Assembly: GCF_000230675.1 (NCBI RefSeq)
Contig: NZ_AGIK01000001.1
Location: 1,116,001-1,180,000, forward strand
From: Synechococcus sp. WH 8016
GTDB lineage: Bacteria > Cyanobacteriota > Cyanobacteriia > PCC-6307 > Cyanobiaceae
Direction of reading: 5' to 3'
DNA: 64,000 nt
Shown: positions 1,614 to 13,969 of the stretch, in pieces
How the letters are laid out: every line of letters begins with the position of its first letter
Numbering within the stretch: the first letter of the stretch is position 1
The notes under the pieces: model-generated
What the model was told of the DNA's origin: nothing
Seen by the model: only the letters and a program-made list of their open reading frames with translations
Database searches by the model: none
Position numbers and translations under genes: made by a program

Positions 1614-2846
1614 GTGAAGATCACGGCTCTAAGTATCGCGAATGCGATGCTGAGCTTTGGTCTTTTGATGACTGAAGCACAGGCAAACGAAACGGAAACA
1701 TCTCAACCACCACCTGCTTGGGTTGATTTAACTCTGGATTTCACGGCCCAACCGGTGGTGGGAATTGCAGGAGGACTGGAACCATCAGCCAGCAGTTGGA
1801 TGCAACAAGTTGCGGCAGGACTCACCCTCGGCACTGGCCTGAACAAAAATCGCAGCAACTGGACAGGCTTCGATCACTGGCAAATACAGCTGGAACTGAA
1901 TCAGTTCACAGGTAATCCAAAACTCAATGAACAGCTAGGGACGGACTATCCGCTTCAAAGCTTGGTCAATCCAACTGGAACCTGGATCACACAAGCATCC
2001 TTGGAACGAATAGAGGGCGGAAACAAAATCGGCTGGAGCATGAATGCTGGAGTGATTTCGATCGAAAACAATGTAATGGAGATACCAGCTCTTGATTACT
2101 ACACAAATTACACCTTAAACACACCTTACAACGCATCGATCATTGGCCTTCCAATCACTCCACTTGTCGCCTTAGGAGCACAAATAGGATGGCATCATGA
2201 ACAGCTTGGGAGCTTCGATTACGCGTACTACAACTTAAATAAGACACATCAGATTGCTGCTTCACTAGGCGTTAAGCCGTTAACGCCGAAGCTCCAAGGT
2301 GATCTTCAAATCTTCCAATGGTCGATGAATCCATGGATCAATTCTCAACAGACAAACACGGAAGAATCAGAACAAAACCTGCCAGACCCACTCATTCAAC
2401 TAGGCGGTTATTCAGCAACAACCGACCTAGACATAACGCAAAGCACAAACTTAGGCGATGGCAGCAATCATGGCATTTACGGAACGATCACATGGCCATT
2501 CTCCCTACCCATTGGAAACGAGAACCGAATCTGGATCTCTAGCAGTCTCAGCTTGAACCCAAACAACAACCCCTTAATCAGCTATCTAGCCGGGGGACTG
2601 CTCAGCCAAGGGATCCTCCCTGGCAGGCCCTTGGATGTGCTGGCCCTAGGCGTGAACAGAAACGGATTCAGCCAAAGCATTACTCCCAACCAAAGTTATG
2701 AAGGAGTGATTGAACTCAACTACAAGATTCAAATCTCTGATCGCCTGCAAATACAGCCACTCATGCAGTGGATCATCAACCCTTCTGGGATAGGATCTCT
2801 GCCAACGATATGGGCAACAGGAGCTCAAATCAACTTCTCTATTTAA
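1614..2846 (+). CDS. OprB-type carbohydrate-selective porin family protein
   Basis: The 410-residue protein has a short signal-like N-terminus (MKITALSIANAMLSFGLLMTE) followed by an Asn/Gln/Ser-rich sequence of alternating hydrophobic residues ending in a phenylalanine-containing terminal strand (GAQINFSI), as expected of an outer-membrane beta-barrel. Phrases such as WTGFDHWQIQLELNQF and LGGYSATTDLD resemble OprB-family porins. It lacks an obvious SLH domain, so it is unlike the large cyanobacterial SomA/B porins. The GTG start at 1614 lies five bases after the hemL stop. A DUF481-type barrel protein follows six bases later, so the two probably form an outer-membrane pair. Substrate is unknown. 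Confidence 0.7.
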   Translation: MKITALSIANAMLSFGLLMTEAQANETETSQPPPAWVDLTLDFTAQPVVGIAGGLEPSASSWMQQVAAGLTLGTGLNKNRSNWTGFDHWQIQLELNQFTGNPKLNEQLGTDYPLQSLVNPTGTWITQASLERIEGGNKIGWSMNAGVISIENNVMEIPALDYYTNYTLNTPYNASIIGLPITPLVALGAQIGWHHEQLGSFDYAYYNLNKTHQIAASLGVKPLTPKLQGDLQIFQWSMNPWINSQQTNTEESEQNLPDPLIQLGGYSATTDLDITQSTNLGDGSNHGIYGTITWPFSLPIGNENRIWISSSLSLNPNNNPLISYLAGGLLSQGILPGRPLDVLALGVNRNGFSQSITPNQSYEGVIELNYKIQISDRLQIQPLMQWIINPSGIGSLPTIWATGAQINFSI

Positions 2847-9850: not shown

Positions 9851-9958
9851 GGGGCTTCAGGCATGGGGAATCAGATCTCAGCTTGTTTTCCCTGTTCCAT
9901 TCCCGAATGCTCTTCCCTCTCCAGTCAAAGTAGTGAACCAACAGGGAGTTTCGGCAGC

Positions 9959-10360
9959 ATGTTTCTCGCTCATACCTCCATCGCACAAGCCGAAGAACTT
10001 GCAGCCGCTGTTGTCGGTGCCATGCGACTCCCCAGTGGTTGGTGTTCAGCGTTCCAGCCCCACTTCCTGTCTTTGATCTTCCGTGAGCTTCTGGAAGTGG
10101 AGATCAACTTCGAACAAATCCGCGGCCTGAGCGTGGCAGAGGCCGGAGTGATTTTTCCAGACCCCCTACAGCGGCAAGAGCTGATCGAGCTGCTCGTCCT
10201 GACAGAAATGATGGTCAATCCCATCCCAGCCGAACTGGAGCGATCGTTGGAACACTGGGCAGAGCAACTCAACGTCCATGATCGATCCCTTGTCTTGGCC
10301 CGAGATGTAGCCACCCAAGCCAGGGCTCAAGCCCAGAGTGATTTTTATCGGCTGTTCTGA
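9959..10360 (+). CDS. TerB-like helical protein upstream of COQ4-like gene
   Basis: From ATG 9959 (MFLAHTSIAQAEELAAAVVG) the product is 133 residues and nearly all helical. A GGGAG ribosome site lies about ten bases upstream; the open frame extends 32 codons further but that part is Ser/Cys-rich and unlikely. The central ELIELLVLTEMMVNPIP and ERSLEHWAEQLNV resemble the TerB/DjlA-like helical fold, and the C-terminus ends in DFYRLF. It touches the next gene: the TGA at 10358-10360 is directly followed by its ATG. The fold assignment is by pattern only. Confidence 0.55.
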   Translation: MFLAHTSIAQAEELAAAVVGAMRLPSGWCSAFQPHFLSLIFRELLEVEINFEQIRGLSVAEAGVIFPDPLQRQELIELLVLTEMMVNPIPAELERSLEHWAEQLNVHDRSLVLARDVATQARAQAQSDFYRLF

Positions 10361-10915
10361 ATGGGAGAAGAGGACCTGCAAAAAGCCGAATTTGAAGGAC
10401 TACTCGAGAAGCATGGGTCGCAAGCATGGACCTTCACGGTGAAGGAAGATCCCGAGCTGGCCGCTCAATGGCGCTCCCTTGCCCAGCTGCCGGCAGGCAC
10501 GTTAGGAGCTGCTGTTTGGCAGCACTATCAGAGCCATGGCTTCACCACCCCTGGGGAGCTCGGCGGTGCCAATGCCGCCCTTGCGCATCACGATTGGCTT
10601 CACGTCCTGGGTGGATACAACGTGGATGTCATCGGAGAGGTAGAGAACGCCGCATTTGGAGCTGCCAGCAGCAGCGTCCCGGGCTCAACGCTCTGGTTTT
10701 TAGGCGTGATGGCGATGTACGAGGGAGGACTCTTTGACAGTGTCGTCGCCGGCAGCCATCCGCACCAAATCTCTAGCGCGGGCACGCCGGAGCGAGTCGC
10801 CCACGCCCTGCGGCGCGGACGGGAATGCAAGCAGGACTTACTCGCCATCGACTATTTCAGCGTTGCCAATCAACAGCTGGTGGACCTGCAAGAAACCTGG
10901 GGCCTCAAGGACTGA
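10361..10915 (+). CDS. COQ4-family-like protein with HDxxH-X11-E metal motif
   Basis: The 184-residue product contains LAQLPAGTLGAAVWQHYQSH and, at residues 77-93, His77-Asp78-x-x-His81 followed eleven residues later by Glu93. That is the zinc-binding motif of COQ4 proteins, and the preceding phrase (PAGTLG...) also fits that family. Eukaryotic COQ4 takes part in coenzyme Q biosynthesis, where it has been linked to ring C1 decarboxylation/hydroxylation. Cyanobacteria make plastoquinone, not ubiquinone, so the substrate here is unknown. It directly abuts the TerB-like gene (no gap) and is translationally coupled to it. There is no signal peptide. Confidence 0.7.
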   Translation: MGEEDLQKAEFEGLLEKHGSQAWTFTVKEDPELAAQWRSLAQLPAGTLGAAVWQHYQSHGFTTPGELGGANAALAHHDWLHVLGGYNVDVIGEVENAAFGAASSSVPGSTLWFLGVMAMYEGGLFDSVVAGSHPHQISSAGTPERVAHALRRGRECKQDLLAIDYFSVANQQLVDLQETWGLKD

Positions 10916-13456: not shown

Positions 13457-13921
13457 TCATGGGCCTGGGGAATCGCCCATTCTGAATGGAGAAGAAAAAC
13501 TCGAAGACAGGACTTCCCAGAGGCCTGGACGTTTAGCGAGCTCATTTTTCGCCTCCACAATCAGCTCGTTCTGGGTGTCTTGATCAAGGGCAAGAGTGTC
13601 ACAAAGACGGGTAAAAGCCTTTTGCTCTTCGGAGTTAACAGTGAATTGGTAAGCATCCCGAGAGGAGGCAATCACCATGTAGGACAATTTTGCCGTGAGA
13701 GCTCTACATTCTTCAGGGATTTCCTCCGCCAAAACCTCCAAATCATTGGGATGGCTGAAGGCTGCGGCCCAAGACGGAATGGCGGCTTCTTTGAGATAAC
13801 GCTTACCAAGAGATTCCAAGAGCTCCTGCTCCTCAGGTGCCATGTTCCCGTCCGACACAGCCATCAATTTAAGGATCTGGATAACAACTCCTGCCGTACG
13901 GAGATCCATAATTACATCCAT
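13457..13921 (-). CDS. TerB-like protein
   Basis: From the internal ATG giving MDVIMDLRTAGVVIQILKLM the product is 154 residues; up to 16 more codons are open upstream. The sequence MAVSDGNMAPEEQELLESLG is the acidic calcium-binding-like loop and helix typical of TerB domains (D-G-x-x-x-x-E-E), followed by helices with FTRLCDTLAL. TerB proteins occur in tellurite/stress systems, often near membrane complexes, with unclear roles. It ends in a Pro/Gly tail (FRMGDSPGP). It is the second TerB-like gene in this stretch and is not in an operon. A 269-codon plus-strand frame on the same bases is antisense noise. Confidence 0.68.
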   Translation of the reverse strand: MDVIMDLRTAGVVIQILKLMAVSDGNMAPEEQELLESLGKRYLKEAAIPSWAAAFSHPNDLEVLAEEIPEECRALTAKLSYMVIASSRDAYQFTVNSEEQKAFTRLCDTLALDQDTQNELIVEAKNELAKRPGLWEVLSSSFSSPFRMGDSPGP

Positions 13922-13969
13922 TTTAATTACCATAGCGTGGCAACTTAATATCAACAAAGTTTTTACCAC

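Follow-up and report, generated by a model that had tools for sequence, protein, structure and literature searches.

A TerB–COQ4 fusion gene interrupted by a stop codon in Synechococcus sp. WH 8016

COQ4 of animals is a Zn-dependent decarboxylase acting on quinone ring carbon C1, its substrate being a prenylated ring of the 4-hydroxybenzoate type, and mutants of its metal motif are inactive; in bacteria, C1 decarboxylation is performed by UbiD with UbiX (PMC7615680). The cyanobacterial COQ4 protein Alr8543 (PDB 6E12) carries Mg at the equivalent motif and holds oleate in the crystal (PMC9774615). A single prochlorosin cluster of Synechococcus is also recorded as containing a COQ4 (PMC10783134). 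The literature searched contained no description of a protein that joins a TerB domain to COQ4. Here we describe such a gene in a 64,000-nucleotide stretch of the genome of Synechococcus sp. WH 8016, hereafter the window. An earlier, sequence-only reading of the window had proposed a TerB-like gene translationally coupled to a COQ4-like gene, possibly acting in plastoquinone ring formation. With high confidence, we explain the locus as one fusion gene cut by a private stop codon, the intact protein being a COQ4-like accessory protein.

One reading frame with a premature stop

Two open reading frames (ORFs) were present on the plus strand, touching without a gap as the sequence-only reading had stated: ORF 1 (9959–10360, 133 codons, ATG at 9959, TGA at 10358–10360) and ORF 2 (10361–10915, 184 codons). 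They are in the same frame (10361 − 9959 = 402 = 3 × 134), and they touch because a lone in-frame TGA separates them, not a gene boundary. Positions 9959–10915 are thus one gene encoding a 318-aa fusion of a TerB-like and a COQ4-like domain, interrupted at codon 134 by a stop private to the window's genome. A Shine-Dalgarno-like AGGGAG was located at 9943–9948 (plus strand), upstream of the start codon at 9959. A start at 9863, giving a 165-aa ORF, was rejected, since the 5' extension is out of frame in genome G013, and both the Shine-Dalgarno site and a conserved MFL start belong to 9959.

In G013, the closest of the genomes available, TGG (Trp) stands at codon 134, and the frame stays open over 361 codons, counted from the last upstream stop. 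The encoded protein was 99% identical to that of the window, with 100% identity in the COQ4 half. TGG was likewise found in G007 and G020, and each of the 11 cyanobacterial sequences of the window's clade in alignment A2 kept Trp134; the premature TGA (10358–10360, plus strand) therefore replaces a residue conserved in the clade. Besides G013, single open frames were present in G007, G020/SP2, G019, Cyanobium sp. Morenito 9A2, Synechococcus sp. CS-1325 and two betaproteobacterial contigs. In a survey of 300 genomes of the family, with carriers of the gene type defined by a match with E up to 1e-30, a stop lay within the match in one of 29 carriers, the window's own genome; the 28 stop-free carriers include G500, which has a partial match only. 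Two coupled genes, as in the earlier reading, would be expected to lie side by side in relatives; none of the other 28 carriers showed such a split within the match. A frameshift as the cause of the junction was rejected, as codon 134 carries a substitution and the length change relative to G013 sits upstream of the start at 9959.

The stop is probably a real nonsense change, and a sequencing error is less likely. If the TGA were an error of sequencing or assembly, the strain would carry an intact fusion gene; we regard this as possible but doubtful. The difference is a single base, the stop is unique among the 29 genomes, and neither half has an excess of nonsynonymous change (window versus G013: five synonymous and three nonsynonymous codon differences in the first 133 codons, four and none in the last 184), all of which agree with an error. 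However, the window aligned cleanly with G013 over 16 kb at 96.2% identity, with no other clear break in any window gene, which makes a poor assembly unlikely, and a substitution in non-repetitive sequence would be an atypical assembly fault. The sole other large gene difference across this alignment concerned an OprB-like porin gene (410 aa, 1614–2846, plus strand), which is intact in the window and frameshifted into two ORFs in G013 (L043:1632–2856).

The COQ4 half showed no sign of relaxed selection, having no nonsynonymous change relative to G013. Such conservation would be expected if the stop arose very recently, if it is an error, or if the half is still in use. In a working split, translation would end at the TGA and restart at the adjoining ATG, and the two subunits would reassemble. 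TGAATG has a favourable restart geometry, and the COQ4 half keeps every amino acid of the G013 version; a merely recent stop, however, would leave that half equally unchanged. The split was absent from all 28 other carrier genomes surveyed, no Shine-Dalgarno site was found before the internal ATG at 10361, and the Trp lost to the stop is conserved in the clade and lies where a long helix ends, at about residue 133 of the structure model. We consider a working split very improbable. Restart at the ATG directly after the TGA could yield some COQ4 half, from a site with no Shine-Dalgarno sequence and with the domains unjoined. Most probably, the window's copy of the fusion gene is an allele that was silenced recently.

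The two domains of the fusion protein

The C-terminal half (codons 135–318; 10361–10912, plus strand) is a COQ4 relative that falls narrowly outside the curated PF05019 family, and we call it COQ4-like rather than a curated member. The 184-aa ORF did match PF05019, at 22.3 bits (E 9.2e-5), although 0.6 bits under the gathering score of 22.9; the whole G013 protein scored 19.3 bits, also under that threshold. A profile of 22 fusion proteins (A2) searched against the PDB retrieved 6E12 (Alr8543; E 5.5e-10) and 3MSQ (E 8.3e-10), and hhalign against plain COQ4 proteins gave 98.5% (E 3.1e-15). L038, an intact homologue, was modelled with AlphaFold2 from a shallow alignment (mean pLDDT 72). In a fold search of the PDB with this model, 6E12 and 3MSQ alone were significant (probability 1.00), although their TM-scores, about 0.5 by target, were modest. 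The metal motif reported earlier was present in intact form as HDWLH-X11-E (10589–10639, plus strand). Its residues His77, Asp78, His81 and Glu93 of the 184-aa ORF correspond to His211, Asp212, His215 and Glu227 of the full protein, and all four were invariant in 22 of 22 fusion proteins from five clades. Profile, fold search and motif thus all support the COQ4-like identity proposed from the sequence; neither a missing COQ4 match, nor a different fold, nor an unconserved motif was found.

The N-terminal half (codons 1–133; 9959–10357, plus strand) had no direct match in Pfam or the PDB. A fold search with a model of this domain (pLDDT 85) gave nothing significant, the best hits being bromodomains matched by chance (E 0.8), and PF05099 was found weakly in L018 (19.5 bits, cut-off 24.4). 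Profile–profile comparison with hhalign linked the domain to TerB. The N-domains of the window's clade (A4) aligned end to end with those of the other fusion clades (A9; 98.0%, E 1.8e-13), and A9 matched the N-domains of cyanobacterial TerB–Mo-nitro_C proteins (98.7%, E 4.7e-16), which in turn match Pfam TerB at 38–40 bits and also PDB 2OU3. Compared directly with the TerB–Mo-nitro_C N-domains, A4 gave a weak match (82%, E 1.1e-5), and the kinship of the window's clade with TerB runs through intermediates (A4–A9–A5–TerB). Judged from these profiles, the N-terminal half appears to be rightly called TerB-like by descent, in a divergent form. The TerB-like partner of the earlier reading thus persists as the N-terminal half of a fusion, not as a separate protein, and by way of the profile chain, not of a direct Pfam match.

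The Asp-Gly signatures of TerB were absent from the window's clade, which has NPIP where TerB has DG and RLPSGW where it has ADG; metal binding by the N-terminal half is therefore unlikely. The cyanobacterial TerB–Mo-nitro_C proteins (L066, L067, L068 and L070) have their N-domain in common with the TerB–COQ4 fusions. The window also encodes a stand-alone TerB-like protein of 170 aa (13457–13969, minus strand; PF05099 22.9 bits, cut-off 24.4), which was 96% identical in G013.

Family, distribution and proposed function

In a phylogenetic tree, the fusion proteins formed five clades (A–E) with long branches and an unsure deeper order. Clade A comprised the window's protein, a second cyanobacterial group (about 42%) and Betaproteobacteria. 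The window's genome carries clades A (the broken copy), B, C and D, in addition to three plain COQ4 genes, one of which (L002; G000:C3:155091-155531) has an in-frame TAA near its 3' end. Its three intact TerB–COQ4 paralogues (G000:C1:510149, 592738 and 1100981) encode 343–353 aa and offer material for functional tests. Other members of the family have decayed: a clade-D copy in G024 (L035:954-1797) contained a tandem repeat coding for (EMKV)n, a frameshift and stops, and G013 holds another family copy with three stops. Downstream of a betaproteobacterial TerB–COQ4 gene, at a distance of 80 bases, lies a gene for a protein combining ferritin-like, Fer4_19 and CDGSH domains (both genes within L041:5563-8663); this arrangement was not kept in L042.

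Of the family's 197 good genomes, 24 carried the gene type, and it was missing from the majority of complete relatives, which have to synthesise plastoquinone. PF05019 was found in 35 of 49 good relatives. No conserved partner genes were found outside close relatives, and a search for plasmid or phage carriage gave no match. Because of this distribution, the lack of shared neighbours beyond close relatives and the decay of other members, we class the fusion gene as accessory, with gains and losses among picocyanobacteria, and its product not as a core plastoquinone enzyme. The suggestion that the fusion replaces a poorly assigned step of cyanobacterial plastoquinone ring formation draws on the C1 decarboxylase activity of animal COQ4 (PMC7615680) and the intact metal motif, but is most implausible given a gene restricted to those 24 genomes, UbiD in all 49 good genomes searched, a finished genome (G033) that has UbiD and no COQ4 match, and no quinone genes among the conserved neighbours examined.

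By kinship with COQ4, a metal is a probable ligand of the intact protein, together with a lipid or a prenylated aromatic compound. We picture a COQ4-like enzyme or lipid-binding protein that depends on a metal and is either soluble or peripheral to the membrane. In its C-terminal helices, His211, Asp212, His215 and Glu227 may coordinate a divalent metal, and these helices may take up a lipid of the prenyl or acyl kind, as Alr8543 (6E12) does, while the divergent TerB-like N-terminal domain might serve assembly or membrane contact, not metal binding. Tentatively, the TerB–COQ4 fusions could form an undescribed family of metal-dependent proteins processing lipids or prenylated aromatics, with at least five picocyanobacterial clades and exchange with freshwater Betaproteobacteria, that acts on a specialised metabolite or a membrane lipid and not on plastoquinone.

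Our result is mainly a correction: the apparent gene pair, with its hint of a quinone metabolon, proves to be one fusion gene broken by a stop codon, which gene finders will annotate as two proteins. Picocyanobacterial COQ4-like proteins include several accessory, easily lost versions, which argues against the view that every cyanobacterial COQ4 homologue is a plastoquinone enzyme.

Comparison with COQ4 and TerB proteins

The TerB–COQ4 fusion is a little-known, scattered relative of a coenzyme-Q enzyme. It resembles the COQ4 proteins of human and yeast, Alr8543 (6E12) and Npun02000094 (3MSQ) in the fold of its C-terminal half, in the HDxxH-X11-E motif, in the conserved Leu-Gly stretch preceding it and in the terminal helices. 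It differs from them in its fused N-terminal TerB-like domain, an identity of about 20%, a score below the PF05019 gathering threshold and an accessory distribution. The three paralogues in the same genome share the two-domain architecture and the motif with the window's protein, but belong to separate clades (B, C and D) and are about 20–22% identical to the window's clade. With TerB (PF05099; 2OU3, 2JXU), as it occurs in the TerB–Mo-nitro_C proteins, the N-terminal half shares a co-linear helical domain, linked by profiles through related fusions; unlike TerB, the window's clade has lost the Asp-Gly signatures, and it gave no direct match to Pfam or the PDB.
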